Assembly (NCBI GenBank): GCA_036874045.1
Contig: CM072340.1
Coordinates: forward strand, 2,433,001 to 2,497,000
Length of the DNA: 64,000 nucleotides
Source of the DNA: Cymodocea nodosa
Lineage: Eukaryota; Streptophyta; Magnoliopsida; Alismatales; Cymodoceaceae
Direction: 5' to 3'
Part shown: positions 8,098 to 43,999 of the stretch, piece by piece
Position numbering within the stretch: the stretch's first letter is position 1
How the letters are laid out: every line of letters begins with the position of its first letter
Notes under the pieces: generated by a model
Seen by the model: the letters and a program-made list of their open reading frames with translations, nothing else
Told to the model about the DNA's origin: nothing
The model's database searches: none
Program-made: the position numbers and the translations under genes

Positions 8098-10362
8098 ATG
8101 ATGGTTTCCAAGTTCAACAAAGGGCGTGGCAGAGGAAAAGGAAGAGGTAGAGGAAATGCAAAAGGCAAAGAAATAGATGTAGATGATGTTCCTCGTACAT
8201 GGTTTAAGAAAATTTTTCAAGTTGACAAAAGGTTAGCTCAAATATATTGCGACTATTTCTTTTCTGAAGAAATACTAGATGAAGTTAGACAAGAACTTCA
8301 AAATACAGTTGACAGTATACAATATATGGGTATAAAAAGTAAATTTGATAGAGAGTATCGCATGAAATGTGCAAAGATAGCATTTTTGGAATAATATGCT
8401 AAATACTTAGAAAAAGGAGTAGGTTCATCTAATAGAATTCCTCAAACACCTATCAATGGAACAAGACTACAATCATTTGAGGAATAATATGAATCTACAA
8501 TACCTACACCTTTATTTTCAAAGGAAAAATAGACAAATATTGTCGTTGATCAAAGAAAAGTTGAAAGTCTTCGAAAGGCAATAGCTATAGAAAGTGCCTT
8601 TGAAGAATTAAAACAGAAAACTTTTATAGAACAGATTCAAAAGAAAACAGCAATAATAGTAGAAGAACAACTAACTTGTTACAAGAGACAAAGAGTTAGA
8701 AAAAATGTTTCTAAGGAAACAAATGTTGTTGAAAAAGAAAAATCAGATGAAGATTTAATTCCAAAGGGCAATGTATGTCTAAACATTGTGCCTTTTAATG
8801 CATCTGATAAACTCATCAATTCCGAATACACTGAAACTGATGATGATGATGAGACTTTATCCTCTTTTTCTAGAAAACTTGAAAAGAAATCAAAGCAACA
8901 AATTAGTTCAAGTTTTTCTATAGTTTCAAGCCCTAATGATAAGGAAATGGAACAATTAGAGCATCAGACAACTAATATTGAACAAGTTATTGCAGATGTA
9001 CTTGAAAATATTAAGGCAGTAACTAGTTTAGAGACTGGATTGTCTAGCGTGGTAGCCATTGAAAAAGATAAGACTCTAGAAGAGCTTAATGTTGATCAGC
9101 CTATTTTAGAATCTATAGAACCAAAGTCTGAGAATTCACAGCATGTACAAATGGAAATATCTGTTGAAGAAACTGAAGAATTACAAATAGATATACAGGC
9201 TGTTGAATTTGTGGAAAATTTGAACTCTGAACATTCTATAGAAACTGAACTTATGGATGTAGAAGATATTGAAAATGTTCCTCACTCTATTGAAGCTGAA
9301 GAATCAAGCTTACCTGAGCAGCTTCAAGAACATATTTTGACAGAGGAACATAATGATGTTCATTTTGAAGAAGAGGTTCCTAAAGATAGATTAAATTCTG
9401 AATCAAGATTTCATGTATCACCTTCTATGTATAGAATACTACCCATTCAACGAAATTCAATTTATTTTAGATCTGAGGAAGCATTGCAGAAATACAATAA
9501 TTTGATTTCATGTCAGATTCTACATTCTCAACTAATAAAATTTAGAGGTTTACTACAAATAAGTGATCTATTTGAGTTTCAAGGCTTAATGCAATTCTTA
9601 CCAATTGGAACAAAATGGAAGCAATATAAAGAGTTTATTGCAGCTTTTTACAATAATCTGGTCAAGAATGACAATATGTTGACAACTCAAATACATCAAC
9701 AAGAGTTTACTTTATCTCCTGAATTGATTTTTGAAGTTTTAGGTTTAAGGAATGAAGGTGTTGTTGTTACTAACAGATTTGACATTGTTAGATAGCTAGA
9801 ATGAGACATTCAGTCTTTATCAAAGATTCCAAGTGTATATACCGAAATCAGATTAATAGAGAATCTGAATGCAGAGGCAAGGTTTATTGCAAATATTCTA
9901 CATGCTAATTTATTTCAGAGAGTCAAACATAATCTGGAAGTCAGTAGAAGTTGTTTATATGCAACTTATGGCCTCCTGTACAGAATTCAAATCAATTGGT
10001 TTGATGTTTTCATTTCTCAACTACAACATATGAGTTCAAAGTTATTTTTTGGTGATGCTGTATGTAGAATTCTTGCAAACCAATTAACTTTATCCGACTA
10101 GCCCTCTAAAACTAAAGGCATGAGAATTTTTAGTATAAACAATTTGCAAAAATACTAGTCAATGCAACAACAACAGCAACAACAAAAACTTGACCTTACA
10201 AAACACCAACCACAATAGCAAAACTATTCAAAATAAGTACAATAGCAACCCGAGCTACCTCCTAACTTAGATGCAATACTGAATGTCATCAAAAATGATT
10301 TTAGGCATCTAGGAGATAAAGTCTATAATGCTATTAGTGATATCATTAGGAGGAATAGATAA
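8098..10362 (+). pseudogene. Copia A1 extra ORF after pol (transposon-associated unknown protein), broken
   Basis: Unknown function. The N-terminus is Gly-Arg rich ('KGRGRGKGRGRGNAKGKEID'), like RGG RNA-binding tails. Next come a 'WFKKIFQVDKRLAQIY' helix and a long acidic, low-complexity middle (about 8780-9400). The C-terminal domain has five conserved blocks, including 'LFEFQGLMQFLP', 'LSPELIFEVLGLRNEG', 'ARFIANILHANLFQRV' and 'SKLFFGDAVCRILA', then a Gln-rich tail. The same blocks occur in Copia B (16328-18922), A2 (23218-25459) and, more diverged, Gypsy Gy1 (41794-43999). It resembles proteins annotated as 'putative plant transposon protein'. It has no clear signal peptide or membrane segment, so an envelope role is not supported. 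Roughly eight interruptions. Confidence 0.7.
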
Positions 10363-10808
10363 ATGTCAAGTCATTTGTTTGTTTACTTGATTTTTGAATA
10401 CAAAATGTAATGTTTGTATTTATTGTTTAATTATTTGAACAATACATTTAACTATAAATGTGTTCATTCTTATTAATGGTTACAGAAAGTTTAGCTATAA
10501 ATGTGTCTCTCAGATTTTTATTCTGTGTAATCATCTTTTTGATTAATGACAAAAGGGGGAGATGATTATGAGTTTAAATGCATATATTAAAAAGGGAAGA
10601 TGATTCTGTGGTTGTTGAAAATTTTTTCTGGAAGTTTTACTTCTGAGAGGTGAATTTTACACAAACAATAGAAATAAGCTTAAGTAAACTTAAGTCAACA
10701 AAATTGTTTGTTGAATTAAAACTTAAACCAAAGGAGGTACTTCGTTGAGTTAAACATATTTCATAATTGATTTAATATGATTTTTGTCATCATCAAAAAG
10801 GGAGAGAT
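10363..10808 (+). promoter_or_regulatory. Multiple polypurine tracts before the A1 3' LTR
   Basis: Three purine tracts lie in this 446-base stretch: aaaagggggagatga at about 10551, aaaaagggaagatga at about 10590 and caaaaagggagaga ending just before the LTR. Repeated polypurine tracts upstream of the 3' LTR are a described Sirevirus trait. B (18923-19246) and A2 (22772-23217) have them too. No gene is seen here. Confidence 0.7.
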
Positions 10809-11062
10809 TGTTGAGTATTTTGTTTTGATGATGTGTACTAAATGAATATAATCATATTTACTCAATTAATGTTATTTGTGAAAGTAAATTAAGAACATCA
10901 ATTAATACAGAAAAAGTTTATTGATATAAATACTTGTCTATAATGGATCTGAAATTATGACAAGTTAAATAATTAATCGTTACGTTATACTAACTTTTCA
11001 TTTAACTAAACGTTAAGTTAAAGTGTGTTTTTATTGTAAAGCATGATATGTTTTAAAGTTAT
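10809..11062 (+). repeat. 3' LTR of Copia A1, first part
   Basis: Begins TGTTGAGTATTTTG and matches the 5' LTR. It is interrupted at 11062/11063 by Copia element B and resumes at 20424. Confidence 0.9.
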
Positions 11063-12256
11063 TGTTTGGTATTTAATTTTGATGATATATGCTTTATTAA
11101 CGTTTTTAAATAAGTCTACATAATATTCTCTAAGTATAATAGTTAACAGATTATCGGAAAGTTTCATTTTTATGTCGGATAAATTAAAGATTTCCGAAGA
11201 GTTAGATTTGCAATAGTTAAACTTTCGGATAGTTAACATTTCAGATAGTTAAACTTTCGGATCGTTAACGTCTCGTTTTTGTCGAATACTTTATGTTAAA
11301 AACTCGTATAGTTAAGTTATCTACATGTGTGTTTTTAATGTTTTAAGTTGTCACGTGTTTTCCATGTGCATTCGGTAATGAAAAATCGAATAGTTAGATA
11401 ACTGTTCGAGTTTTTATATGCATGGATAGATAACTATTCGAGTTTTATAAAAGGACTAACGACCAGATAAGTTTCTTTGTTTAGTCACGTGTTTTGCAAG
11501 TGCAAAAACTTGAAGAGTTAAAGGATAAGTGTTTGAGTTTTGCAAGACTTAAAGGATAAGTGTTCGACTAAATCGAAAACTTAGAAGATATTCTACAAGA
11601 CTTTAGGAAGATAAAGTTTCGATGTATCTACGAGTGGAGATCGTGGAAACTCAAAAAGATAGTAATTTGGATTAAAGAGAAAATTAGTACGTGGATTATG
11701 GATTATGGATTGTGGATCAAGTGGATGAACATGCTGAACGTGAAAGACAACAGAGTTCGACTACAAATAGAGAGTACGAGCTACATTACAATAGGGGATC
11801 CCAATCTCGAAAATCAAGTCTGAATATTCAATCCGGATCCCTAACTAAAAAGTTAAGTTTGAATATTCATATTCTGAAAAGTTCTCCAACATCAGAAGAA
11901 GTTCAAAATTCCAAGCAATTTCAGAAAAGGAGCTGTAAACGTAAGAAGTTTGGAAATTCGACAACTGGAGAAGAAGAGATACAGAAGCTGAGCAAAGACA
12001 AAGAAAGATCATGTTTTATACAATTCGAAATTAGTTTTCAAGAAGAGCTTTATTGTTATATTCGAATTGTATATCGAATATTTCTGTATCAAAACCGTCA
12101 AGAAGGGAATTGAGCTGAGAAGAAATTGTAAATTCTGTCTTGAAATAAAAGAATAGAATTTCATTTATGAGTGTTTTGTGCTCTTATTTTATCCGCTAGT
12201 ATTTAATTACTAAAGACACAATTCACCTCCCCTTTTGTGATACAAACGATCCTACA
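11063..12256 (+). repeat. 5' LTR of Copia B
   Basis: TGTTTGG...CCTACA, 1194 bp. It contains repeated GGATAGTTAA and TCGAATAGTTAGATAACTGTTCGAG-type inverted words (about 11150-11460), which differ from the A-family GTTGAGTTA words but have a similar layout. An open stretch at 11691-12113, without an early ATG, also lies in the LTR and is partly shared with the 3' LTR. Confidence 0.9.
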
Positions 12257-12421
12257 AACTAGTATTAGAGCTTCTGTTTTTCACTTATTTTTTTTCAGAT
12301 TTACTACGCTCTGCTACAACTAGTATCAGTGCACTTAAACTATTTAAAGCATTTGAAAAGCCTTCATTTCTCTATTAGGAATCGGTTTTTCTTGTCATTT
12401 ACTTCAAATCATCTGTTTAAA

Positions 12422-14269
12422 ATGGATAATTTTGAAATCTTAGTTATGACTGAAGGACAGACCACTGAATGCTAAAGGTTTAAACATCTTGTTTTGTGCT
12501 TTATCTCATGATCAATTTAATAAAGTTTTTGCATATCAAACTACATATGAGATATGACATGCATTAGAAGTTGCCAACGAAGGTACTAATCAGGTCAAGG
12601 AATCTAAGATCAATATGTTAGTACATAAATATGAGCTTTTTAAAATGCACGAAAATGAATGTATCTCTGACATGTTTTCCCATTTTCTTGAGATTGTAAA
12701 TTCATTAAAATCTTTAGGCAAGAAATTCGAGGAAAAAGACTTGGTAAGAAAGATCCTTAGATCTTTAACTAAAATTTGGGCTCAAAAGACAACATCTATT
12801 GAAGAGTCCAAAGACTTAAATACATATACTCTCAATGATCTCATAGGAAATCTAACAGCCTATGAAGTACAACATTTAGATCCAAAAGGGAAAAATCCTA
12901 GAAGGGATCTGGATTTTGAGGCTGATAAAGTCTCAAAAGTCACTAGTGATTCTAACGATGATTTACTATTGTTGACCAGAAAATTTAGAAATCTGTTGAA
13001 GAAATGTAGGAACTTCAGGTTAGCAAAGACATCTGGAGATATGGAGAAGAAGTCATTCACGAAAGACAAAAGTATATGCTATAAGTGCAACAGGCCAGGT
13101 CACTTTCAAACTAATTGTCCTCTCAACAAAGATAAGAAGAATTCGAGGAGGAATTTTAGAAATAAGAAATTTAGAAAGAGAAGGGCACTTAAAGTGACAT
13201 GGGATGACTCTTCAGCTTCACAAAGTGAAGAAACAAAGGATTCAACATCAAACAATGAATCCTCATTAACATCAGATTCAGAAGAAAATCTGGCAAATGT
13301 ATGCTTTATGGCAAAATCCAGTGAGGTATCCTTTGATCAAAATGCTAATTTTGATAGTTTTGATGGATTACTTGTTGAATACAATAGACTAGCCAGAAAA
13401 TATAAGAAAGTCAAAATAGAAAGAAAGGACACTAGGAAAATGCTAGATGAATCTGAAAATAAGATTGATTTTCTAAACTCTACGTTGAATAAATTTAAAG
13501 AAGAAAATCAAAGGCATGCATAGGAAATTTTAAAGTTCACTACTGTAGAAAGAAAATTACATGCTGATTGTGAAAATTTAATTGCTGATAAGAAGAAAAT
13601 GACCGGTTAAATTGAAAAACTGGAACTGACTATTACTAATTTAGATTCAAAAATTGATGTGTTAAAGATTAAAGTTTGTGATCAAAAGGCTATATTAAGT
13701 AAATGGAATAATAGTCAAACTATAACAAATGAACTTAGTAGTAAAATATCAAATGTAGAAAAACATGGTATTGGTTTACACGATGAATCTTCTGAAAATT
13801 ATATATTGCATGATGGTACTGCTAAAAATAATGTCTTTATTTCCAGTACTAAGAATGGTAAAAGAAAAACTATTCCGTGTGTGATTAAAAACGGAGATAA
13901 ATTGTGCGAATTGATAAAATGCAGCATATAAATGATAGCACACGATGCAAGAATTTCAAAAGAAATTTTCAGAAGAATCAAGCTAAGACATTTGAGAATT
14001 TTAATATTCTTGATCAATTTTCTTCATATTTAAAGAATAACGTATATTGGAATCAGAAATCAAATAATGTCAGAAATGAAAATTTCAACTCTGGTTTACA
14101 TAAAGATAAATGTTCTGATAATTATAACACTAAGAGAAAGAAACACAAGAATAATTATCAAAAAATAGATATGTTGAAGTTTAAAAATATTGAGAATTTT
14201 GATATGACTCTCTCTAAAATTCTTGGACCCACTCAAAAATGGGTTCCAAGAGATAAAATCTCTTTTTGA
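12422..14269 (+). pseudogene. gag: Copia B gag, broken
   Basis: UBN2-type gag related to that of A1 and A2. It has 'MLVHKYELFKMHENECISDM', a zinc knuckle 'CYKCNRPGHFQTNC' (CX2CX4HX4C, about 13078-13120), a Ser/Asp-rich linker and a long coiled-coil tail. It ends near 'LGPTQKWVPRDKISF', which resembles the gag/pol boundary of plant Copia elements. The amino-terminal block seen in A1 is not recognisable. A few interruptions. Confidence 0.75.
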
Positions 14270-15402
14270 TTGTTTTGTAGGTACACAAATTAAAATTACG
14301 ATTAGAACTTGGTATCTGTAGGTTATCTGATATTTAAATGGTCATGTTCATTGTATTTTGATTTGTTATAAGGTAGTTTTAGAATTTAATGTCTTTATCA
14401 TTAAAAAAAAAAAAAAAACAAAACAAAATATCTATTTTCGAATTACAGTTTTCTAGTAGTTAAGAATTTATGAAATTCTGATTTTTATTGAAGTCAATTT
14501 ATTTAAGAAAAATTCAGAAAAGATTACTTAAGGACAGTTAAATTGATTCAATATGAGTGCCAACTATATTTTTGTTACTTATGTATATGCTATTACAGAG
14601 ATTTTAACAGGAAAATACATAGAAAGTATGTACTTTTTATTAAAGGAAAGTTAATAACATTCTGTTAGAAAAATTAAGTCTTGCAGTTGCCTCTAATTTA
14701 AATCTACTGTTTTATTTCTTTTTTTTCTGCAATTACTTGAGTAATTAAGTCCGTTGGGGGATCTTAAACCCTAGTCACTTAAACCAACTGGTTTGGGATG
14801 TGCTAACTGAAAACTCATTTTGCAAGTAATTCAGATTATATTTAAAAAAAAAAAATTTACCTGTTCTCACTTGTCATTGAGTAATTGGTTATCTTTCCCC
14901 TAAGCAAGGGATTGTGATCACGTAAAAAGATGATATTGTGGGAGGTAATACATAAAATATATATATGAATATAAACAAAAAAAAAAGGGGTAATGTACTC
15001 AAGCTTAATTTATCTTTCAAGGTGTTATAACAATCCTACCATAATCTATGCATATGTTCCTTGTTATTTTTTGTTATTATCTACTCTTTACGCATAATGT
15101 ACGATAATTATTGTCTTAAGTTTGTGTACTCATTATTGAATTCTTTTTAAGTTTCTGAAGGTATATCTTTATGAATTATCTTTTGTAAACTGAATAAGAT
15201 AAAAGCCAAAAAGTCCAAATTGTTAACTCTACTACTTATTTCTGTATTTAATTCAAATTAAAAAAAGAAGAAGGAGAGACTCAAATCTATTTAAGGCTTA
15301 GCATCCTCTTTAAGTAAGCTATTTGACCTTTTAAAGCCAAATCTACTTAGGGCTTGGCAACCTAGATTAAGTACGCCATAGATTCTTTACACTACATTTA
15401 TG
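14270..15402 (+). other. Non-coding block of Copia B
   Basis: No gene seen. The first 60 bases resemble the very end of Copia RNase H coding sequence ('LGICRL'-like). The remainder is AT-rich and includes the tandem unit at about 15283-15385 that is also present at window positions 5-113. Similarity to the A-family/Gypsy shared block is weak but includes the 'ctaactgaaaactcattttg' region. Confidence 0.5.
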
Positions 15403-16327
15403 TAGGGGGAGCAATTTCTCGTATAATAATTCATCTCTTATAAACTATTATATGTTTTCATGAAAGAATCTACATAATTTCAAAAAATACACTTTAATTA
15501 AGTACATTTCTGAACTATCAGTGACTTGCAAGTTTTTTTAATTCTTAAGTATCCAAATTTTCTACTGTTTTGGCAAGTTATATTGCAAGTATCAGATAGT
15601 TGTGTTTTAAAATGTTCAATAGACAATTTTATTATTTCCTGAAGTACATGTGTCGAAACCATAATGTATGACTTAAGTGGATTTTCGGTAAGTTATCTAT
15701 AACTCTTCGAAATGCATCTGGGCATCGGAAAGTTAGATTTGTAACTATCCAAAACATCTCTTTATTATAAAACTGCTTAAGTACATGTGTCGTGATCTGG
15801 AAGATTGACTTAAGTTATCTTTCAGAAGGTTATGTGTAACTCTCTGAAATGCACCTGAGCATCGGATAGTTAGGTTTATAAGTCTCCAAAACTTTCTGAA
15901 CACCTTAAGTTCAAATTATGCACGTGTTGAATTTCACTGCTTTATAATGTCTCAGTCGAAACTCGAACAATTATGTTTAACTCTTCGACTTTTCACACCT
16001 ATTCCTTCGAGAAACTCGAACAGTTATCATAAGTCTTCAAGTTTTCTCACTTTTCACTTAGTCTGAAGTTATTTTCTTTATACGAACAGTTACGCTAAGT
16101 ATTCTGCAATTGTTGGTTGTAAAACTTGTACAGTTATTGTAAGCACTCGAGTTATTTATCGGTAACGGATCTTATATTTATGATTTCAATGATTGAATCC
16201 ATTTATAAACTCGAAGAGTTATAAATGCTTTACTAACAACCTTTTGTGTTTCTACCTTGGTAAAACCCTAGCTTCACAATCTTTACTTCCACTAAGTTCT
16301 ATAGTGCAAAGTGAAGATTAATTGACA
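15403..16327 (+). promoter_or_regulatory. Internal polypurine tract and Gypsy-U3-like promoter region before the B extra ORF
   Basis: Starts with a purine tract (gtagggggagca, about 15403-15414). About 330 bases are then collinear with the start of the Gypsy LTRs (complement of about 35935-36270). Shared words include 'tatccaaattttct', 'ttttattatttcctg', 'atgacttaagtggatttt' and 'gaaatgcatctg'. Next are repeated 'actcgaacagttat' words, a TATA-like tttataaa (16202-16209) and a leader with 'aaaccctagcttcac' before the ATG at 16328. It reads like an LTR promoter placed inside the element. Promoter activity is inferred. Confidence 0.65.
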
Positions 16328-18922
16328 ATGTCAAGACATGGAAGAGGACGTGGTAGAATGACAAAAGTGCAGAAAAGAGAGCTGGAAATTCAGAAAATAC
16401 AAAGTGAAATCAACGACATCTACTCCAGGTATACTTTTTGAAACGAAGTACTATATGAAATAAGAAAAGCTGTTCAAGATGAGAAAAATTTCTGTTGGAA
16501 ATTTATTCGAAATTATGCTGAAACATAGTTTAGACTAAAACTAACTAAACTTTCCGCATTGCATTTATGGAAAAGAAATTTACAACCTAACCCTACAGTT
16601 GTAAGTTCTGGACATGTACCAGAGACATCGGTATAGTCTATCACCTACTATGGAAAGAAGTGGGGACCAATGATCGAAAATGCAAATAGAGAATTACAAT
16701 CCTTGTATTCCCAACATTATTTTCCCCCAGTTGTTTTAGATGATATTAAACAGTGTATAGATGAACAAAAAACTACCATTAAGAAAATAGGCCTTCGAAG
16801 TGAAGGACAAAGAGTTTATCAACTCAAAATGGCAAAGGTTGAGAGCTTAAAACTCTATATTCCATTATTACAACTTAGGCATCATGGTGAAGGACCATCA
16901 AGACCCTAGGTGCCTTTAATAGGAGAAATTAAGACAATTTTAGAACCTCCTAAACAACCTGAAACACTACAGACATATAGTTAGAAAAAGAAAAAGACAA
17001 TTGAATATTTTGGACTAACTATAGGTGTACAAGGAATATTGCAGCAAAAAGAAGAATCAATAAAAAATGGAAAACTATGCTCCATTGCAGAAGTTGGATA
17101 GACATTTTTGTTAGGAATCCCAACAGATGTGACAAATATTGGCTTACAAGCATATAATCTAAGGTATTGTGTCACATTAGTACATAATGTATCTTTTCAT
17201 ACAATGGATAGTTTTTTACACAATGCTGCAAGCACACATTCTTTTCCTACGGAAAGAGAGCATGTAGGAAATTTTGATGATACATATACAGATGATATCC
17301 AATTTGATGATATTTTTGATGACATAGACACTGAGTCTATGAATTTTGAAGATATTTCATCTGAAGAGGAATGTACAGATATTCTTCCTCTTACTATATC
17401 TCAAATAGAGACTTTTGAATTTTGGTACAGTTGCTTATACTACACTTTATATATATGGTTATGTCTGTTACAGTATATAGTATACTTGTTGATAAATGTA
17501 TATAATCAACAACATACACAGTTACAAATAGAATATGATACTACCAATATCTCACATATACAAATTTCAGAAATACAGGATGATTCTATTCCACAGACAG
17601 ATATAGAACATTCTTTCATACAGAGATAGTTGTATAGATTAAATATAGATATACATGTTGCTGATATACAGATTATTACAGAGACTGTTGCTAATGAAAT
17701 GTTTCCAAAAGAACACATACAAGAATTTCAGCAGATTATTGATACAACAATACCAGATACTTCAAACATTTATAATAGTTTTGATGGCAATTGCACTAGT
17801 TCTGAAAGATCTGCAAATTTAGATGCTACTGATAATTTTGAAACAAGTCCCATTTCAGAACATCATGACAGGAAAATACCTAATCCTGAACAGAGTTTAG
17901 ATAAAAATACACTATTATGGTTAAGAAATAATTCCTGTTATGACAAATTTCAGACATATAAAACTTTTATAGTTTTATACTTAAGACCAGTTAAGTTTGA
18001 AGGGATGGCACACATACGAGAACTGTTTGAATTTCAAGGCTTGTTCACTCTACTTCCACAATAGCCAGGCCATCTTGCTATACCCGAACTTATCAATTGT
18101 TTTTACTCAAACTTAATAATGGAAGAAATTATTCCTATTTTTAATATACAAGACAATGACATATATTTAACTCCAGATTTACTTCATCAGGTACTTGGTC
18201 TGAAAAATGAAGGAGTTAAATTATCAGAAAGAAAACATGTTTATTGATTAGGATGGGACATTACAAGTTTAGCCAAAGATCCAACTGCCAATAAACCATT
18301 GACATTACTAAATAACTTAAATGGCCAAGCACGTTTTATTGCAAAAATATTGCATGCTACATTGTTTCAGAGGTTTGGTCATGGGGCAGAAGTTGGCAGA
18401 TGTTGTCTTTATGCTACATATGCATTAATAAACCATATACAGGTGAACTGGTATGATATTTTTGTTTCTCATATCTTACATTTGCAGAGTAAATTATTTT
18501 ATGGTGATACAATTTTGAGAATTGTGGCAAGTCAAACAGATATTACACCTTGGCCACAAAAAAGATTAAAGTCAAGATCTTTCTCTGCAAAGGAACTCCA
18601 AAAATACTAGGAAGTAGATACACCTGTCCTCAGACAACAACAACAACATGATCAGCAAACACAGTCACAACAGCAACAGCAACAATCCACACAATTTACA
18701 GAAACATAGCAACATACAGATATACAACAAGGTATACATATAGAAATACATACAGGTATAGATACAGACATACATACTGAATTTTTACAACAACCATCAC
18801 AAGTTTCTCAAAATGATTTAGATCAAGCATTACTTGATCAGATAAATAGAGTTAGTACAGAAATTGCAAAGAAAATTTCAGATACTCTAATTGATATTTT
18901 TCGAAGACAAAGAGGCTTGTGA
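16328..18922 (+). pseudogene. Copia B extra ORF (same unknown family as in A1), broken
   Basis: Starts MSRHGRGRGRM, again a Gly-Arg-rich basic N-terminus. A helical region with two related segments follows (about 16350-16560 and 16670-16905), then an acidic middle. The C-terminal domain has 'PVKFEGMAHIRELFEFQGL', 'LTPDLLHQVLGLKNEG', 'ARFIAKILHATLFQRF', 'SKLFYGDTILRIVA' and 'WPQKRLKSRSFSAKELQKY'. The tail is Gln-rich and ends 'DIFRRQRGL'. These blocks are collinear with A1, A2 and Gy1. Function unknown. The RG-rich start suggests nucleic-acid binding. About half a dozen interruptions. Confidence 0.7.
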
Positions 18923-19246
18923 TTATACAAATTATGTATTACATGCTTTATTTTTTGTAATTTGTAACGAAAACTATTATGTCAACTGCTTACTGATTTT
19001 AATGTTACATGATTATTTTTCACAGTTTATGTTTAAACAGTTTATGCTTAATCCATAAATTTTATGTATGTTTAAAACTATCGTTTTGATTAATATATAC
19101 TTAGTAAGATTTCCTTCCTTACATTTAACTTGCTTAACTTCCTAAAGGGGGAGAAAATAGTTTGTTTATTTTGTTATAATGCCAAAAAGGGGGAGATATA
19201 AATTATGTGACTTATTAGGTTTTGACATCATCAAAAAGGGGAAGAT
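18923..19246 (+). promoter_or_regulatory. Multiple polypurine tracts before the B 3' LTR
   Basis: Three purine tracts (aaagggggagaaaa at about 19145, aaaaagggggagat at about 19185, caaaaaggggaagat ending at 19246) precede the 3' LTR, as in A1. No gene seen. Confidence 0.7.
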
Positions 19247-32240: not shown

Positions 32241-32271
32241 AATCAGAAACTTGTCTATTAGGCGATGCCAA

Positions 32272-33742: not shown

Positions 33743-34297
33743 TGTTTGGATTAAAATGTTGCATATTTTTATAGGATATTATTGGTTAAATAGATTTACA
33801 TGAGATTTATTAAAGTCATATTATGCATTTATTTCATTATTTAACCAATAAGAACCAATCCCCATTTTATACAATTAAAAGTAGGAAATTATTTCAAACA
33901 TGCATCATTTATGAATTTTATGGATGACTTGATACTTTGATGTATTTATTGTTATGAAAAGTTTATAATTCAATAGAAGATCATGGAAATTGAAGATTGG
34001 AGAAAGAAAATCAAGTGGGATTTAATCCCAATCGTTGAATCAAAGATGGATCTCCAAACTTGGAAACTCTCTATATAAAAGAGAGTGATGCACGTCTAGG
34101 GCTCCTCTCTTGGGCTATTTTGTTTTCCACCTCCAACACCACCAGCCGTCACCCCCTCTTGGAGCTCCACGTCTTGAAGCAAGGAAGGAGAACGTTGGTC
34201 ATTCCACCACCTCTCTTCAACTCAGATCTCATCATCTTCATTCCACAAGTCATCTCCAACGTGAAAGCCTTCATCCCACATCTTGGAGGAGGGATGT
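33743..34297 (+). mobile_element. Solo LTR S1, left part
   Basis: S1 starts TGTTTGGATT here and ends AATCCAAACA at 52508, perfect 10-bp terminal inverted repeats. The 5-bp duplications CCTAA are at 33738-33742 and 52509-52513. This part has a TATA box in 'ctctatataaaagagag' (about 34070) followed by a C-rich, GC-richer leader, typical of plant Gypsy LTR transcripts. S1 is split at 34297/34298 by Gy1. Total length is about 1.6 kb and no interior is present, so it is a solo LTR. Confidence 0.85.
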
Positions 34298-36336
34298 TAG
34301 TTGGATTTTTAGGTGGCACCAGAGAACTTATTTAGTTCCCCGACAACAGTGCCAGAAAATTTGGTTGCCTTGTTAACTTCTATTTGTAACGTAGTTAATT
34401 TATCTTATGCTTATCAGTAATTCCTTTTTAGAAGTCAACAAACCATCTTTCACACAAATTAGCTATTAATTCCAATTTGTATTTTAACTGCAAGTGCACA
34501 GTGTATATTGTATTTGTATGCAACTACAGGTCGATCCCATAGAGAATTGAGGAAGAATTGTGTACTGTTCTATTTTTAATAAGGAAATTTATATCTTCAG
34601 TAAGCACTTCGTTGAGTTATAGCTAACTCAACGAACTAACCTCGTTAAATTGAAGTAACTCAACGAAACTATCTATCCAGTTTAATACTGCTATTTACGA
34701 AGGAATTCGGTCAACCATTGAGTGGTTCCACAGATTGTAAATAACATCAATTAAGCTCTTTAATGCTAGTTAATATTAAATTTATCATTCAACAACACTA
34801 ACATTCAGATAATTCAAACAGTAACCATTAAAATCTTTAAGTACTAGGAACGATTCAATTTCAGTAAACTATAAAACTATTTTCTATTTTCTAAATTTAA
34901 ACAAACATGAAACATTCCAAACACTGACAATGATAACAATAATCACGATACAAAACAAACAATACAACACTCAAATACTAACTATAAAAACAAATAAGTT
35001 GTTTTTGGTATTTTTGTTTTTATATGATCATGAAAATGGGTGAAAGGTGAAATGTAAAAGTAATCTCTATTGATAGTAAAAACTTTCATCACTACATGCG
35101 ACGCGATTACACCACTGAAAATTTAACCACTTATAATTCTGTCTCCTCTCCCTATAGAATTGCGAGTCCAGAATTGCAAGTTAATCTCCTCTTCAGCATA
35201 CTGGCATCAACCCGAAACCAAGGCTAGAAGCTTTACGATCTCTTAAGATATGAGTCGGTGCTTGGTGAAAATGGCTTCCCTTCCCGCGACGCGATCACTC
35301 CTCACAGTGGTTGTCAAGCATTATGTTTGGCTCGAAATCGACCCGACATCAGGAAAGTATCCTCACAGACCTCCGATGGTTGGTGATAATGGTGGTGGTG
35401 GTGGTAGTAGTAGTGTGGAACTTCAGGGAACTTCCGTCGCTGCCTGTAGTTAGCATGGTCCTCCTCCTCTGCACACATACTAGCCACCCCTTTTCATTTT
35501 TTTTCTCCTTGTCTTTTATATTTCTTAGTAGTAACTGCTTCTGCTTCGATGATCGGTTGGATTTCCTTCATTCATATCAACGATAGTGATTTCTTCTTCC
35601 TTTCACGAGCAATTTCCTATGTGATACGTGCAATCGTGGTTTTCCTTCGAATGTCTTGTTTCTGTAACCGCTATAGTGGCATATTAGAAAATAAATGGTC
35701 CGTGGAGTTACAAATAACTCAACGGACTTACTTCGTTGATTTAACAATAAAACACGTGCAATAAAGAAATAAGCCGCTAACATAACACGTTACATTAATG
35801 TGTATTCATGTAACTCAACACGTACAGTTATGGTAACTTAACGAGTTAAACATGTGCATCTCACGTGATATACTAAAGCAATCTAAATTCAACACGTGCA
35901 TAATTCTATCTTAACAAGTTCAAATATTTCAGACACTTACGAACCTAACTATCCGATGCTCAGATGCATTTCGGATAGTTAACAAATAACTTACCAAAAA
36001 TCCACTTAAGTCATGCATTGTAGTTTCAACATATGTAATCCAGGAAATAATAAAATATTTTTTAAGCATTTAAAACATAACTGTTCTATACATTAAACAT
36101 AACTTTCCGAAATAACAGAAAATTTGGATACTAAAGAATTTCACAGCCTGCAATTTACCGATAGTTCATAAATGTACTAAATTAACATTACTTCCCTGGA
36201 ATTATGCAGATTCTTTCATTAAAGCATATAACAGTGCAATTATAACATAATGGCTTAATTCTCGTATGATAAGCTAAATATTATGTAATTAACCATCATT
36301 TAATCGTTAATATTATGCACTTTTTCATTCTAAACA
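34298..36336 (-). repeat. 3' LTR of Gypsy Gy1
   Basis: On the minus strand it starts TGTTTAGAATG at 36336 and ends at 34298. Within it are two diverged primer-site-like units (34306-34370), the U5-like 'actgcaagtgcacagtg', TAACTCAACGA words (34609-34675), a GGT/AGT microsatellite, a Copia-A-like segment (about 35770-35940) and a Copia-B-interior-like segment (about 35935-36270). Confidence 0.9.
35391..35418. repeat. GGT/AGT microsatellite in the Gy1 3' LTR
   Basis: Runs of ggt then agt triplets. The Gy1 5' LTR has the equivalent at 50505-50532 with one more ggt, and the Gy2 left LTR has only a short form near 33315. In the short open frame that crosses it (35250-35453) this would read as Gly/Ser repeats. 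Coding status of that frame is doubtful. Confidence 0.7.
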
Positions 36337-36347: not shown

Positions 36348-37615
36348 CTTAAATTTTGCTAGTCCCATAGCAAACTAAGATCTAACTAATTGGTCTTTCT
36401 AAAGTGCTAGATTTAATTCTTCATTTCGCTCTTCTTTAGAATAATAAATTAGATTACTATATAGATATTTTGTATGCTTCAGTAATCTATTTTAACTTTG
36501 TTTTCTCCTCTTCAACCTGCAAATATATTTAGAATATATGTAAATTACATACAAAATATATCAGCATCACATAGGTGTTAATTATATTATCATTTTTTCT
36601 TTTCAACATCTGTCATCCTGAATTTTTCAATATGATTTCTAGAATAAATTTCAAGTACATAAGAATCAAAGCACAATCCAATTCGATATGATTAAGACAA
36701 GTAGAATAAAAAATTGTATCTAAATAAACAACTTCAAAAGTCTATTCTAGATTCATACTTCAGCAATTTTAGATAACAAAACATATACTCAATTCATAAG
36801 ATAGAATACTCAAGTGTATTTCACAAAACACTTGTATCTTTTCAAAACATTATATGCATATTTGTACTTTTAAAAGTTAATTTGACAGGCTTGAATCATA
36901 CAAAAGCTTTTTAGTGTACCCATGTATCGAGCTTTCAGTCAACAATCCCAGATTTGATTAGGATCTTAGGTTGCCAGATTTAAAGAGTCTTTTTCAGGTC
37001 AACAATCCTTACATACCTATCTGTTCAAGTACAAAAGGCTCGTGATCAAACAAGTTAATAAACTCTCAAAGTTTTTTCTTTTTTTTCTTTTTTTTTTCTT
37101 TTCAACACAGTATATGTACGTATTTCATTAATACAGATGCAATAAAACACCAATCTCATATAGTCCTACTTCTATTATTTATTGAAAATATGAATCCATA
37201 TCAATAAGCTCATACTTTTTTCTATAGTTTAATAAGATCTACACATAAATCATTCTACAAGTTTAATCAATCAAATTAAATGCATCATTGATCATATGTA
37301 TTTCCTATAATCCAAAAATCAACATTTCATCTCTTTTAAGATTTCAGATAATTTACTGAGTTTTAGTTAAACATTCTGATTTCTTTTTAAAATCATGAAA
37401 CTGTTAAACTCATAAATTTCAGCAAAAACATAAAATACTATATCTAGATTTGTATAAGTAGTAAAATTTGTAGCATCTTATATAAGATTCTAAATATAAC
37501 ATTCAAGCAGTTACAATTCTTAAAAAAAAAATTACAGTCTCAATTATCAATTTCCACAAAACTTTGCAGTATCATTCTAATTCCTTTAATTAACAAACTT
37601 ACATGGCTGTTACTT
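36348..37615 (-). other. Non-coding block shared with Copia A (Gy1 copy)
   Basis: No gene. It is collinear over roughly 1 kb (about 36510-37520) with the Copia A block between pol and the extra ORF (25976-27056 and 6504-7570). Landmarks are 'ggcttgaatcatacaaaagc', 'caatccttacatacctatct', 'ggctcgtgatcaaacaag' and 'aatacagatgcaataaaaca'. Orientation relative to the pol coding strand is the same in both superfamilies. Confidence 0.78.
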
Positions 37616-38116: not shown

Positions 38117-39242
38117 CTAAAAAGTAGTAACAAATGGAATAAATGTGTCAATCCAAGCAAACTTTTTTGGCATCATTCTTCTTGTTATCAATTCTGTTTC
38201 AATGTAGTCTATTTTCCTTTTTAATTTGTAAACTTGTAGTATGTTATCAATACTAAATATAAGTGTATTTCCATTAATGAAATGAAATGCAAAAAGAGAT
38301 CCTCTTCTGTTCCAAGATAGTGTGGCTGTTTCTATTTCTACATCTATTTCAATATATTCCTCTTCCCACTTCCATTCATTTAGGTCTTTTATATTCCATA
38401 TTTGAAATTTCTTCAATTCATCTCACCATCTTATCAAACATAGAGTAGGATCATCATATTCATTATACCACATTCCTAATTGAATTTTATCATATTCTAC
38501 AGATGGTGGTTTAGCTATATCACTTGGTATAGGCAAAATTTCTATATAGTCATTATCATAACTATCTATGCTTACTATGTATAAATCAAATCTAAATGCA
38601 ACTGATATATCTGTGACTAAATATATATATCCATCAAGTATGACATGTATGTTGTTAATTAAAGATTTCTATCCTAGATATATCATAGTGTTTTTAGTCC
38701 AAGATCTATTCAGAAAATTATACACTTAAGCATAAATCTTCATCCCAATTTCCAATAGGTCTCCAATAATATAATTTTTCAGGAATGGTCAAATTTTTAT
38801 CAGAAAATATTAAAGTTGACCCACAATTTTTAATTGGTACTTCATATCTATTAGGCCTTCCTATATTCCATTCTTCTCTTGTGAGAGGATTTCTAATCAA
38901 AATATCAGGTAATAGAATTGCATACCTTGGTTTGGTTCTGTATATAATTAATCCTTCATCCATCCTCATAATATGATTTATTCCTTCTAATGCATTGGGT
39001 GGAATTCCAATAGTTTCATCCATATTCAGTTATTCATAGTTGATTGAACTATGATTAAATGACTTCCATAAAAATCCATCTCTAATCTTAGTCATTTTTG
39101 CAGGTTGTAATCTATGAAAATATTTTTCTCTAACATAGTCTTTAATATCTTTTGATACACAACACAATCTACACAGATCTTTAGCTGACAAGTTACTCAG
39201 TACTTCCCTTTGTGTGTCCAGTGGTAGTTTTAAGAATCTCAT
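38117..39242 (-). pseudogene. F-box protein gene carried by Gypsy Gy1, broken
   Basis: F-box proteins are the substrate-recognition subunits of SCF ubiquitin ligases and bind SKP1 through an N-terminal F-box. The start reads 'LPLDTQREVLSNLSAKDLCR' followed by 'LCCVSKDIKDYVRE', a good F-box with the Leu-Pro start and the Cys-Arg-Val-Ser-Lys-like core. The remaining roughly 300 residues look like an F-box-associated region, with 'RPIGNWDEDLC', 'LGMWYNEYDDPTLCLIRW' and 'DLNEWKWEEE'. The ATG at 39242 sits just after 'acaacag'. No introns are evident, consistent with capture of a processed transcript. A related copy is in Gy2 at 54858-55870. It is disrupted at a few positions. Host origin is inferred. 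It is not a normal Gypsy gene. Confidence 0.72.
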
Positions 39243-39473
39243 CTGTTGTGATTTTGTATAATATAAACAAAAAATTTAGCAAAGACAAAAATTAACATAA
39301 CTACTTCACACCCTCGTGGAGTTAGGTCATAACTCAACGGATTAAGTCCATTGAGTTAAGTAATAACTCTACGATACTATTAACTATAAGTAAACTTATA
39401 CCTATATATATATATATATTTTTTATATTTTTCTACTTACTATATTATACATAGTTACTTCAATTATACTACT
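39243..39473 (-). promoter_or_regulatory. Promoter-like region of the F-box gene
   Basis: On the minus strand it contains a (TA)n tract at 39403-39418, then 'tccgttgagttatg' / 'taactcaatgga' words (39312-39375), then about 70 bases of leader to the ATG. It separates the gag end from the F-box start, so the F-box gene could be transcribed on its own. Inferred. Confidence 0.45.
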
Positions 39474-40818
39474 TCATTCAACTACCCTCCTAGAGGAGGT
39501 ATCAATTTCATAAATAGTTTTGTTAATAGGGTTAGGTACTGCTTGCATTGGCAATCCTCCAGTAGGTCTAACTTCTATTGATTCTTTCTGTCTAGGGGGT
39601 ATATTTCTATTTATATTTTGATTTTGAATTACAACATTTCCAAATACAAAATCTAGACAATTGTTTAATTGTTGAATTATCTTTTCTAATTTCTCTATTC
39701 TAGATCCTTGTTCAATTAATGCTTCATAACTTATATTCTTGTCATTTATATTTTCCCCTCCATGGAAATTGTTGTTTCTCCAAGATAAATTTGGGTGATA
39801 TCTCCAATTAGTGTTATATGAATTTCCAAAGTTATCTTTCTAGTTTCTAGCATAAATAATATCTAGATCATTAATGCTTGCATTCTTTTCTGCTAGTTTT
39901 TGATTTAATGATAACTCTTCTATTTTCTTTGTTAATTCAATTAATTTTACTTCTAGCATAGTGCTTGAATCTATTTCATGCATTCTCCTTAGCAATATTC
40001 TTTTATCTACAATAGCTTCAGCTGAGTTCTCTCACTGTGTAGTTCTTTTTGCAAAATTTTCTAAGTATGCCCATGCTTCTTCACTACACAATTTTAAAAA
40101 TCCATTCTGACAAGTAGATTCTAATAAAGATTTTGTTGAAACATCTATGCCTTTATAAATTATACCTATTAATTGTGCTTTACTCATTGCATGATGCGGA
40201 CATTGAGTCATTAAATCTTTAAATCTTTCAAAATATTTTCAAAATGATTCTCCCTATTTTTGACTACACATTAATATTTCCTTTTTCTTTTTAATCGTTT
40301 GATGTGTTGGATAATATTTTTCCAGAAAAACAGAGTAAAATTCAGTCCATGTAGAAATTGAATCAGACGACAGAGTATATAACCATCTCTTAGCTGTGTC
40401 TTTTAAAGAAAAAGGGATATATCTAAGTTTAATAGATACTCATATTCGGCATTTTCATCATTTGACAAACTTCGTTAAATTCTCTAAGGAAATAATAGGC
40501 ATCCTCTCTTTCTAATCCATGAAAATGTGGCAATTGACTAATATAATTAGATTTCAGTTCAAACCTATCTCCCTCAAAGTTTGGCAATCGAATACATGAA
40601 GGCTCATCAACTAATTCAGGATATAGAATTTCCCCTAATGGCTTTTCTACTAGAGTAGCCATATCTTCGTTCTCTTTTAAAGAAAGGTTTGATACACCCC
40701 TAAGGATTTCGTTAAAGTCCAATTCAGAAAATGTTTCAGTACGCTTCTGTGTTGAATACTCCTAGGTAGGTGTTTTTACTAATCATTTAGTGCTAGGAGA
40801 ACGAGTCCATGTGCTCAT
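39474..40818 (-). pseudogene. gag: Gypsy Gy1 main gag region located after pol, broken
   Basis: Athila-like gag (capsid-type, Retrotrans_gag). It begins at an ATG at 40818. Visible segments are 'IRLPNFEGDRFELKSNYISQ', 'LPHFHGLEREDAYYFLREF', then 'RYIPFSLKDTAKRWLYSL', 'FERFKDLMTQCPHHAM', a helical stretch and 'NTNWRYHPNLSWRNNNFHGG'. These are the classical Athila gag landmarks, but no zinc knuckle is seen here. A zinc knuckle is instead in the 5' ORF (48370-49304). The region lies downstream of integrase and the extra ORF. Gy2 keeps a piece of it beside its F-box copy, so the placement predates both copies. A handful of interruptions. Confidence 0.8.
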
Positions 40819-41400
40819 AAACTCTTAACATATAGTAAAACAGTAGAAGATTAATTACATACCAGTCCGAAGCTTTCTATTCGATAAATAGTTGTTGACG
40901 GATGAAGTTGAATCAGCTGCTTCTCCTTCTAGTTCCCCAACGAATTTTCTTTTCTCTCAAAAGTGCTGGTAACTAGTAAATAACATTCTGTTCTATATTT
41001 ATAATGCATGTCCATAAAGCAAATAAATCTCGTTGCAAGAACGTGTCTTGTGACGTGTAGTGTGGTTCCTATTTTTCTAGGTACGTGTGCCACTTCTAAT
41101 TTCAAATTTCAGTAACTGCTAAACCCACGAAGTTTCATTCGTGGCTAAGAGAATAACCGTTTACCTTAATCCACAAACTAACCTCATTGAGTTATAGATA
41201 ACTCAATGGAATAGCTTCGGTTACTACTGCTAACTCCACGAACTAACTTCGTTGAGTTACAGATAACTCAATGGAGTGACCTTATATTATATTACTGACC
41301 TTGTGGAGTTAAGGTTAACTCAACGGACTTACTTCATTGAGTTAACACTTAGCAACCTCTAAGTTTACTCCTCGTAAATACTTTTCTACTCTCTTGCATT
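40819..41400 (-). promoter_or_regulatory. Promoter-like region of the relocated gag
   Basis: On the minus strand a cassette of six or more GTTGAGTTA / TAACTCAACGG words (41169-41346) is followed by a TATA-like 'tataaatatag' (40994-41004) and a leader of about 180 bases to the ATG at 40818. The layout is the same as at the LTR and the extra ORF. It would allow gag to be made from its own transcript, which a gag placed after pol would need. Inferred. Confidence 0.5.
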
Positions 41401-41793
41401 TTTTCAACTTAAATAAAGTTAAATACATGTCATTAACGCAGCATTCTAATTAAAACTCATTTAAATCTGAACATTATATAAATTTTTAATTTGCATTTCA
41501 TTTCATGTTATGCAGAATTTATATTTTACTTTGCAGCATGCAGATATTTTCAAGCATTAATCAATTATCTTTCATTTAATCCTATCATTCAGCAAATTGT
41601 AAATCTTTTAAACAATCTTGCATAATGTTCCACAAATTATAGAATATTCAATATAGTTCATCCATTTCATCATTCTCAAACACGAATGAAAAATATATCT
41701 GAAAAACATATATTCATTAATATGAATAATTTACATTACAACTTAATCAGATATTTTTCATACAAATATATACAAGTAGACGAACAATACAAT
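41401..41793 (-). other. Non-coding spacer between extra ORF and gag promoter
   Basis: AT-rich, no gene or repeat recognised. It directly follows the extra-ORF stop and may be its 3' untranslated region. Confidence 0.4.
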
Positions 41794-43999
41794 TTAGTCT
41801 TTTCTCCTAAGTTCATCTACTTCCTTCTGGAGTTTTTCTACTTGTTGCTCTAATTGGTTAATCCTTTCTACAACTCTTGTAATTCCTCCAAAAGGTTCAG
41901 CAATCTCTACAACTACATAATTTCTGTACTCTTTCACTGAAATGGTTCTTGATCTGATCCTTTTGGATGTCCATTTAGTGAAATCAATACAATCCACCAT
42001 CAGTAGTGGAATCAGATCTCCATAAAACAATTTCTTCTTCACTGTTCTCAACTGCATATGTGGCCTACTTTACAAATTAACTCAGTTCTATATCATGGCC
42101 TTGTCGTTGGAAGACATTCTTAATTAGAATGTTTGCTATCATGTGTGTTGTACCATTTAACTGCTTTAGTCTATTTAATAATGACACACCAGGATTGATA
42201 GCTAAACAATCCTTGATTTCCTGTTCTGTCCACTCAACGGCAGTTGTGCTTTCCAAAATTTCTTTCCCTTCATTTTTCAATCCTAAAATGTTGTGGAGAA
42301 GCTCTGGTGTTATTTGTACATCAGCTTCCTCCACATTGGAAATTAATCCTCCTTCTTCTTCTCTTAAGTTTGCATAAAAGTAGGGCACTAGATTCTCATA
42401 TACTGCATGCCCTCTTTCTTGAGAAATAAACTTCAATAGACCTTGGAATTCAAATAATTCTTTGATTTCTTGCATTCCGTCCCAATTTATTGGTCTATTG
42501 TAAATGATAGTATAACCCCTAATCTCTTGGTATTTGTCATAAGCTTCTTAACTCTGAAAATGTACTTCATTTAAAACTATTGCTTCAGAAGGATCAGGAA
42601 TATGCATTTGTTGCTCTTGAGGGGTTTGTTCTTGAACTTCCTCTTCCAAATGCTAAACTTGTACTTGCTAAAAATGCTCCATAGATTTTGGCATTTTTGC
42701 TTCTACTTTTGTGTATGGTGGTGAGTTGGCAAAACTCTCCACTCTGTCTTGAATTCTTTCCATAAATTGCTAAAGATTTTCTTGCTCTTTAGTGGAATAT
42801 GTTGAGTCCTCTCTTTCCATATATACTTGTTCAACTTCTTGTTCATTTTTTTCTTCTTCTTCTTCCTCCTAACTACCAATCTGCATTGTCACTATTCTTT
42901 CTAATTCTGTGGCAGATTGGGATGGAGTTCCGGGCAAATCAGTTTCTGCCCTAATTTCTGTTTCTTCTATTTGTACAGGCTATAGACTAGTTTCAGCCTA
43001 TTTTTCTTCTTCTCTTTGCTCTTTCTACTGCTGCTCTTGCTCCTCTTCAAAATCAGATAGCAGGTTTACAAAATTTGGCTCTACAGGCCCTACTGACATT
43101 TGTCTTTCAGATTTAATCTCCTCTTGATATTCAAACACTATCTCTTTTCCTTTCCTTTTTCTAATTAATTGTGTCTGGTCTTCCTCTTCCTCGTCTGAAA
43201 TTAAATCTACAAAAATAGGCTTTGCACGCCTTTGAGCCACAGGTACTGACTCTTCCTGTTTAACTCTTTCAATAATTACTGGTCTCGAAGGACCAACTTC
43301 ATCTCCTTTTGTAACAAGTCTGGTAGTAGCTTCTTGATGTTGTTCCACTTTGATTTTATATTAGGCTTTCAACTTTTCTGCAGCTCTCTTTTTGTAAAGT
43401 ACATCGAACACTAGGTGTGCTTTAGCCACTACCAAATCTTCTGATTCTCCTTAGTTTTTCTCAACTCGAACCAGTTCTTCAAATTCTCTTAATTCTTCTT
43501 CGTTTGAAGGCCCCATAACTACCACCCTTTCTAATGGTTTAGGAGGTGGATTTGAAGGTCCTAGCTGCTATTCCTCAGGAACAGGTCTTTTAGCAGTCCG
43601 CTCCTCTTGTTCTTTAGTTGCCTCTTCTTCATTTTCTTTCCTTTCTTGCTCCCAGATCGCCCATCGAGCTCGTCTACCTATTTGTCTTTTGAACCAGAGC
43701 TGGGACTTACGTTGGATTAATTCTAGGGCAACTTCTTTGTTTGGCCTAATTTTTCTCTCTTTACTTACAACAATTTCCATAGCAACCTTTATTCTTGTTT
43801 CCATTATTTGAGGTATTTGTATACCCAAATCTACTAAAACTCTTCTCTAGTTGAAAAGTTCAGATTTTACCTTTTGTAGTTCTTTTTCTCTTGTCATATT
43901 CCTGATTTTCTGCTTCGTGTGCCATTCCTTCGAGTCTTTAAGAAATTCTAAAGTGTCTACTACCTATTCCCAGAACTCATGTGTCATCTTCCTCATCAT
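41794..43999 (-). pseudogene. Gypsy Gy1 extra ORF, homologous to the Copia extra ORF, broken
   Basis: Starts at tandem ATGs (43999, 43994). The N-terminal part is basic and helical ('ERKIRPNKEVALELIQRKSQ', 'KRQIGRRARWAIWEQERKEN') and the middle is acidic. The C-terminal domain has the Copia-type blocks 'MQEIKELFEFQGLLKF', 'ITPELLHNILGLKNEG', 'MIANILIKNVFQRQGHDIE', 'KKLFYGDLIPLLMV' and 'TKWTSKRIRSRTISVKEY'. It ends in a coiled coil ('INQLEQQVEKLQKEVDEL'). 'PYFYANLREEEGG' resembles the family called putative plant transposon protein. Position after integrase is where Athila elements carry an env-like ORF, but no signal peptide or membrane helix is seen. Function unknown. Roughly ten interruptions. 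Confidence 0.7.

Follow-up and report, generated by a model that had tools for sequence, protein, structure and literature searches.

An extra open reading frame core common to SIRE (Copia) and Athila (Gypsy) retrotransposons of Cymodocea nodosa and its probable transfer between them

How do retrotransposons of two superfamilies, Copia and Gypsy, come to carry what looks like the same extra gene? The question is raised by a stretch of Cymodocea nodosa DNA (64,000 nucleotides, contig CM072340.1 positions 2,433,001–2,497,000; genome size 374.6 Mb), which we call the window and within which all coordinates are given. The window is a nest of long terminal repeat (LTR) retrotransposons with a G+C content of 26–37% in 2-kb bins. 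Extra open reading frames (eORFs) are found in two Copia elements of one SIRE type (SIRE-A1 and SIRE-A2, here A1 and A2), in a related SIRE element (SIRE-B, here B) and in a Gypsy element that is here called Athila (Gy1). An initial annotation had described five collinear blocks common to the Copia and Gypsy eORFs, and we found all five to be present. The eORFs also share a conserved core, and both are located as follows.

8101–10362, plus strand: SIRE-A1 eORF, 754 codons including the final stop, one frame with several internal stops, first Met at 8101
9454–10155, plus strand: shared core of A1, 234 codons
16328–18922, plus strand: SIRE-B eORF, 865 codons including the final stop, several internal stops
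16358–16591, plus strand: SIRE N-terminal module of B, copy 1, approximate bounds
16649–16882, plus strand: SIRE N-terminal module of B, copy 2, a tandem duplication, approximate bounds
17906–18607, plus strand: shared core of B, 234 codons
23218–25459, minus strand: SIRE-A2 eORF in two frames, with core pieces at 24136–23723 and 23727–23389
41797–43999, minus strand: eORF of Athila Gy1, interrupted by several stops and one frameshift
42044–42571, minus strand: first part of the shared core of Gy1, 176 codons

The core has a length of 234 residues in most rows of the domain alignment. The window copy of Gy1 lacks about 20 residues and carries its frameshift, both within the core: its eORF keeps one frame from 43999 down to about 41984, and its end (42069–41797) lies in another. 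Read by eye, the tails after the core are helical, and those of Athila, including the Gy1 C-terminus, coiled-coil-like. The N-terminal halves are unlike. In A1, a basic RG-rich start is followed by an acidic middle and then by the core, and the SIRE eORFs have an RG-rich start plus a module that is tandemly duplicated in B. The basic start that had been ascribed to the eORFs in general was therefore confirmed for A1 and B, and is absent from Gy1.

Pairwise comparisons of the core left little doubt about its relatedness. BLASTP aligned A1 with Gy1 (31.6% identity over 174 residues, E 1e-30), B with Gy1 (37.2% over 188 residues, E 5e-40) and A1 with B (42.7% over 232 residues, E 8e-65), and for each of these pairs none of 1000 shuffles reached the real Smith-Waterman score. 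The last Gy1 piece (81 residues) also matched B (E 4e-9, 0/1000 shuffles), and more weakly A1, where 3 of 1000 shuffles scored as high. A naturally open Athila copy from elsewhere in the genome (L010) aligned over the whole core both with B (38.5% over 247 residues, E 9e-61) and with A1 (33.6% over 247 residues, E 4e-46). When all open pieces of at least 30 residues that A1, A2, B and Gy1 encode in the sense of the element were compared, the only matches between Gy1 and the Copia elements with E below 1e-5 were eORF pieces. Profile comparison gave the same picture. With hhalign, four SIRE cores matched ten Athila cores with a probability of 100 (E 3.3e-49, 231 columns), whereas the reverse transcriptase (RT) control, Copia against Gypsy, reached a probability of 0.3, its best BLASTP E being 0.03, and Copia and Gypsy integrase pieces reached a probability of 6.3 (E 0.006, 25 columns). 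The RT control pieces were verified with Pfam (RVT_2 for L049 and A2 on the Copia side; RVT_1 for L045, L048 and L041 on the Gypsy side), and all these profiles are shallow, with 2 to 10 similar rows. From these alignments, the Copia and Gypsy cores are almost certainly homologous. The initial annotation had named as refuting evidence a lack of profile similarity, or a closer relationship of each version to a different family outside transposable elements (TEs); the similarity proved strong, and no such separate families emerged. A protein database of 5.8 billion sequences, from which plant relatives may be absent, contained no relative of A1 or L010 at E ≤1. Viral contigs yielded no relative either, and solved structures a single meaningless match (E 0.4).

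Since the window is heavily nested, a piece of a Copia element inserted in Gy1, or the reverse, could have been misread as part of one element. We looked at the placement of the eORF at separate loci, which were picked by rank or for a long open frame and are thus a non-random sample. The Athila-type loci were ten 9-kb stretches, comprising seven of the eight fetched loci with a match to the Pfam family PF20167 (see below) and three of the 30 loci found with a Gy1 query. Athila integrase lay upstream of the eORF and on the same strand in eight of these ten; the exceptions were L039, with no recognisable SIRE or Athila pol in its 9 kb, and L041, with the integrase on the opposite strand. On the SIRE side, pol preceded the eORF at four of the five loci read, and L055 had an LTR fragment instead. 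In A1, A2, L049, L054, L056 and L057 the eORF lies in sense orientation after pol and ahead of the 3′ LTR. The earlier description of the eORF as following pol in A1, A2 and B holds for the first two; open pieces of the window copy of B included none matching the pol of A, so that its pol is unrecognisable, and pol is present in its relatives L049, L056 and L057. Furthermore, the Athila and SIRE versions are 28–42% identical, so neither can be a recent insert of the other. Placement and divergence together refute a nesting artefact for the eORF, and we give it next to no weight. The versions also appear to be widespread: a first look at the genome returned 10728 candidates for a Gy1 piece, 9971 for B and 9676 for A1, and the 150 scored for each all matched. 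With the remainder unscored, these candidate counts are not copy numbers.

The core also shows signs of constraint. The ratio of nonsynonymous to synonymous changes (dN/dS, Nei-Gojobori) was 0.11–0.40 in 18 hand-picked copy pairs. Because A+T-rich DNA alone can lower dN/dS, an off-frame control was made for eight of the 18 pairs: the wrong frames gave 0.455–1.98, against 0.11–0.33 in frame, and third-position changes were the most frequent in all eight. The five SIRE pairs, which are closer, gave 0.20–0.40. These substitution patterns offer good support for the core having been kept by selection in Athila, and weaker support for the same in SIRE.

The core could be linked to a known protein family. 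In the profile search that the initial annotation had proposed, PF20167 (Transposase_32) matched both A1 (E 2.2e-4, 21.6 bits, profile positions 17–151 of 177) and Gy1 (E 3.8e-5, 24.1–24.7 bits, positions 7–116), below its curated cut-off of 45 bits, and the SIRE-B eORF had no Pfam match, PF20167 included. Other Athila copies scored 24.9–37.3 bits, with L010 covering profile positions 7–150. A search of the C. nodosa genome with PF20167 gave 14 matches, of which eight were fetched. Seven of these (L002–L008) are Athila-like eORFs. The other, L001, lies outside SIRE and Athila, was the only one to reach the cut-off (45.0 bits) and matches Gy1 at 29% identity (E 3e-17), which ties the core to the PF20167 family. 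As the scores of A1, Gy1 and the Athila copies all lie under 45 bits, the core is, judged by these profile matches, a remote relative of PF20167 and no certified member. At the locus of L001 (L039:3457–4516, minus strand) the PF20167 ORF has 204 codons and overlaps an ORF for an RVT_3-type RNase H.

SIRE and Athila have DNA in common beyond the eORF, whatever the mechanism. We refer to two non-coding segments as the L-block and the U-block, and list them with the short motifs found in or near them.

6639–7644, plus strand: L-block in the linker between pol and eORF of A1, 73–76% identical in DNA to the final 1 kb of the internal region of Athila
7561–7568, plus strand: AGGGGGAG octamer within the A1 linker
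7877–7994, no strand assigned: three ACTCGTTAAGTTA-like sites (≤1 mismatch), 107–224 bp upstream of the A1 eORF
15404–15411, plus strand: AGGGGGAG octamer of B, immediately ahead of its U-block
15444–15944, plus strand: U-block just upstream of the B eORF, 75–79% identical in DNA to U3, with which the Athila LTR starts
15707–15865, plus strand: two copies of the palindromic box CCGAAATGCATCTGAGCATCGG, with 2 mismatches each
25950–26923, minus strand: L-block in the A2 linker
35874–36235, minus strand: U-block in the Gy1 3′ LTR, with a palindromic box at 35953–35974
36433–37440, minus strand: L-block of Gy1, a short way ahead of the 3′ LTR, with a second copy at 53094–54091

The L-block (nhmmer E about 1e-147) was present in both further A-type loci. 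The U-block (nhmmer E 5e-65) was found upstream of the eORF in all three further B-type loci and, taking all B loci read, is 73–80% identical to the Athila U3 along as much as 500 bp. Among the 40 U-block and 150 B-eORF matches listed, paired by eye, at least six of the 40 scored U-block hits, the window's own included, lay 2.0–3.9 kb upstream of a B-eORF match on the same strand. The shared blocks could stem from an Athila LTR piece that inserted in an ancestor of SIRE just as well as from template switching, for which the available text of PMC1950507 gives a precedent in plants. It is also possible that the U-block of SIRE-B derives from a nested solo LTR.

How, then, did the gene come to be in both hosts? 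The core is 28–42% identical at the protein level between SIRE and Athila (35–42% for SIRE-B against Athila) and 38–45% between SIRE-A and SIRE-B. Tree paths tell a similar story, with 1.38–1.91 between B and Athila, 1.81–2.30 between A and Athila and 1.44–1.51 between A and B. Descent from a Copia/Gypsy ancestor that already bore the eORF would agree with its position after pol, on the same strand, in both hosts. However, it would predict a divergence between SIRE and Athila far greater than that between SIRE-A and SIRE-B, as is seen for RT, and the near equality of the two makes it unlikely. Within SIRE the core evolves faster than RT (A and B are 38–45% identical in the core and 67–74% in RT/RNase H), yet across the superfamilies the core can still be aligned and RT cannot at this level. 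In addition, the available text of a pear survey names Maximus (SIRE) as the sole Copia lineage with a third ORF (PMC4668562). We consider common inheritance highly improbable.

The main competing explanation is that SIRE and Athila each captured the gene from the same third source, for example a gene of the host or a further TE belonging to the PF20167 family. Such an ORF does exist outside both lineages, namely the one at the L001/L039 locus that reaches the cut-off and overlaps the RNase H ORF, and the eORFs of plant elements have been argued to be independently acquired from many sources (Neumann 2019; PMC6317226, in the part available). Against this, L001 is far from both versions (24–29% identity), whereas SIRE-B and Athila are 35–42% alike; no closer relative outside TEs turned up in the PF20167 search of the genome, where L002–L008 are Athila-like; and the same two partners also have non-coding blocks in common. 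Separate capture therefore seems unlikely, although it deserves more weight than common inheritance.

We thus favour a transfer between the superfamilies as the probable origin, on the basis of the relative divergences. The initial annotation had offered transfer or repeated capture, with a tree grouping sequences across the superfamilies as the expected sign of transfer. Common ancestry is firm, but the tree did not group across superfamilies. Built from 17 of the 53 domain rows (those omitted were near-identical Athila copies and repeat fetches of the same loci), it gave the SIRE cores one clade and the Athila cores another (ultrafast bootstrap 91 and 94), which argues for one old event in this genome and not for repeated recent gene transfers. 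In the rooted tree, the two clades would put the transfer before the split of SIRE-A and SIRE-B. On this reading the eORFs of Copia and Gypsy are a single family of accessory genes, which forms a divergent branch within the plant TE family modelled by PF20167; the gene would have passed once between SIRE and Athila before that split and afterwards been kept by selection. The putative route is recombination of co-expressed elements, by template switching or by read-through of neighbouring copies. Athila is slightly favoured as the donor, for the single reason that PF20167 has been reported in sunflower Athila (PMC11728184, in the available text).

Several observations weigh against this reading or parts of it. 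The SIRE and Athila eORFs are reciprocally monophyletic with no nesting, so that neither a direction nor a recent transfer is seen, and the root of the tree is one distant sequence, L001, on a long branch. At four-fold sites SIRE-A and SIRE-B differ by 45–47% and SIRE and Athila by 56–82% (few sites), a contrast that makes the split across the superfamilies older than that between A and B. Several pol pieces of A and B are just 40–57% identical, so that pol is not uniformly slower than the eORF. The searches for relatives covered one plant genome. The eORF DNA of the two hosts is 46–53% identical, near the 47% of one shuffled alignment, and the L- and U-blocks are 73–79% identical; being far more alike, the blocks reflect other and probably later exchanges or were held by selection, and hence are no record of the transfer of the eORF itself. 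SIRE-A and SIRE-B, moreover, have different non-coding blocks. Homology between the N-terminal halves of SIRE and Gy1 is unsupported, since Gy1 ranked 8th of 501 in a profile comparison with seven shuffles scoring higher; for the pair of B repeat 1 and Gy1, 2 of 1000 shuffles reached the score. Regarding selection, off-frame values fell to 0.14 in other, shorter Athila stretches, so a low dN/dS is no proof by itself, and the single SIRE pair with an off-frame control gave 0.33 against 0.52 and 1.14. Finally, two AlphaFold2 models of mean predicted local distance difference test score 35 and 37 were unusable.

The blocks ahead of the SIRE eORFs resemble control DNA of LTRs, which suggested how the SIRE eORF might be expressed. 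With up to 5 mismatches allowed, the palindromic box occurs seven times in the window: five Athila LTR copies hold a single site apiece, and the B linker holds two. The ACTCGTTAAGTTA-like sites number 33, with 0.1 expected: 23 in SIRE-A LTRs, five in Athila LTRs and five in SIRE-A linkers, the motif having been taken from the LTR alignment and the two SIRE-A linkers being homologous. The expectations for CCGAAATGCATCTGAGCATCGG and ACTCGTTAAGTTA come from block shuffles, which are not true dinucleotide shuffles, and as both motifs were picked after seeing the alignments, their presence in the source LTRs is by construction. LTR-type boxes upstream of the Sirevirus ENV have been described before, and an internal promoter argued for with none pinned down, in the available text of PMC2829016. 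In our case the putative promoter would be the LTR-type U3 sequence directly upstream of the eORF, and we rate the chance that the SIRE eORF is read from it as about even.

We then asked what kind of protein the eORF may encode. A retrovirus-like envelope would fit its place between pol and the 3′ LTR, and the eORFs of both SIRE and Athila are termed env-like in the literature. The initial annotation had seen no envelope features, which is wrong for the B type, given the following feature.

17444–17500, plus strand: hydrophobic segment TLYIWLCLLQYIVYLLINV of B, Kyte-Doolittle mean of 1.83 over 19 residues

Such a segment, which in B does not belong to the shared core, was found in all four B-type copies examined, the only type with a mean above 1.6. 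Among SIRE-A and Athila pieces of at least 120 residues, mostly partial eORFs, no 19-residue mean exceeded 1.2 (on the Kyte-Doolittle scale, with no dedicated predictor). A transmembrane segment in all members, as would be expected of an envelope family, was thus not found. Since A-type and Athila pieces gave no hydrophobic segment and that of B lies outside the core, an intracellular nucleic-acid-binding factor is favoured; we regard an envelope as improbable and an accessory factor acting inside the cell as moderately likely, both being predictions from sequence. Clues to a putative nucleic-acid-binding and self-associating protein are the basic start (in SIRE), the conserved Lys/Arg-Ser block with which the core ends and the helical tail. 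Such a factor would aid a late step, for example nuclear entry, targeting or escape from silencing.

The eORFs described here resemble known ones in several respects. Those of the SIRE/Sirevirus/Maximus lineage (eORF-3′F of SIRE1, ToRTL1, MtRetro3, LjRetro3 and pvRetro3/4) share the host lineage, the place and the sense strand, and the env-like ORFs of MtRetro3 (774 residues) and LjRetro3 (793 residues) are of similar size (PMC4093653, available text). In Sireviruses, as here, the polypurine-tract octamers lie mostly after the eORF and LTR-type motifs upstream of it, as far as the accessible parts of PMC2829016 describe. In the available text of PMC4093653 and PMC2533021, however, the known SIRE eORFs are compared only with Copia elements, while here the core is also in Athila, and the SIRE linker carries Athila-like DNA; the comparison with those eORFs is by description. 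The ORF(+) of sunflower Athila 14, likewise a sense eORF with partial similarity to PF20167 and with predicted nuclear localisation, is described for Athila in the available part of PMC11728184, whereas here the same core also occurs in Copia. As to PF20167 itself, annotated as "Putative plant transposon protein", most of the profile aligns to A1 and L010, but A1, Gy1 and the Athila copies reach 21.6–37.3 bits of the required 45 and SIRE-B goes undetected. A parallel outside plants is the ORF3 of bdelloid rotifers, where one type of accessory ORF occurs across unrelated retroelement classes; the proteins (GDSL esterase, DEDDy exonuclease) and the pairs (LTR and Penelope-like elements) are others (PMC5408684, available text).

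By their available texts, env-like proteins of the Athila group have little sequence in common (PMC1142308), a review treats sense accessory ORFs as env-like (PMC7264820), and a survey treats the eORF groups of Copia apart from those of Gypsy and suggests that they arose independently (PMC6317226). Our literature search, incomplete in coverage, found no report of a sense eORF common to Copia and Gypsy in plants. Plant env-like ORFs have so far been seen as a heterogeneous set of independent acquisitions whose function is doubtful, whereas a core that both superfamilies have, and that purifying selection maintains in Athila and probably also in SIRE, speaks for a genuine shared function. The role of the protein must then serve two unrelated replication machineries, which provides a direct way to find its function. 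The eORF core is, besides, a concrete example of DNA exchanged by superfamilies, and it comes with a putative internal promoter that is open to testing. More tentatively, with the odds slightly against it, SIRE and Athila may share a stock of movable parts, made up of the accessory gene and, in front of it in SIRE, LTR-type promoter DNA, although the replication proteins of the two superfamilies are unrelated by sequence at this level. If so, Copia and Gypsy RNAs would meet in one particle, or join by read-through, often enough for selection to employ one accessory protein in both.

The host assignments are based on the remaining features of the elements.

392–1918, plus strand: A1 5′ LTR, followed by TGGTATCATAGC, a tRNA-Met type primer-binding site
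11061–12256, plus strand: B 5′ LTR, 92.5% identical to the 3′ LTR at 19245–20423
12450–13928, plus strand: gag-region pieces of B, 61–74% identical to A in the gag core and 31–41% outside it
44656–45474, minus strand: Gy1 integrase piece, PF00665, 37.7 bits, above the cut-off
49387–49404: Gy1 primer-binding site, tRNA-Asp type
49411–51453, minus strand: Gy1 5′ LTR, 94.7% identical to the 3′ LTR at 34297–36336

A1 and A2 were assigned to SIRE-type Copia from their Copia gag and RT, the primer-binding site of A1 and the AGGGGGAG octamers 3′ of the eORF. Domains of the Retrotran_gag_2 and RVT_2 type were found as gag in A1 and B, and as RT in A2 and in the B-type L049. A tRNA-Met type primer-binding site is common to most other Copia lineages; the sites of A1 and B were read by eye, and that of B is the decayed form TAGTATTAGAGC. 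The octamer AGGGGGAG occurs eight times in the window, always within one of the SIRE elements A1, A2 and B, against 0.30 expected from shuffles, with six sites after an eORF and two in linkers. It is a polypurine-tract motif of Sireviruses (PMC2829016, available text). B belongs to a SIRE family related to A, its window copy having gag and the eORF. In pol, the RT and RNase H pieces of A and B types are 67–74% identical, and the other pieces 40–78%. The order RT, RNase H and integrase, typical of Gypsy, was read from Gy1 for the last two and from the related copies L045 and L048 for RT. Together with the tRNA-Asp type primer-binding site, this domain order is the basis on which we call Gy1 an Athila element of the Ty3/gypsy group.

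We also noted further open frames in Athila. An ORF of 193 codons lies between the eORF and the 3′ LTR (54861–55439 and 38120–38668, both on the minus strand), and its copies show 77–90% protein identity. It has no Pfam match, and its being coding is weakly supported, as dN/dS in frame was often inseparable from that off frame. After the Gy1 eORF, the translation of 39477–41108 (minus strand) is largely kept in other Athila copies, most pieces at 65–93%. This is possibly a second extra gene; its dN/dS ranges in frame and off frame overlap.

The nesting of the window includes the SIRE-B element (11061–20423), which sits inserted in the 3′ LTR of A1, and a SIRE-A type LTR (56145–59757) interrupted by an Athila LTR (56483–58430). 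Lastly, the SIRE-A LTR (763–955) and the Athila LTR (35777–35921) have about 150–190 bp in common, at about 75% identity and with CACGTG-like sites in the same sense.

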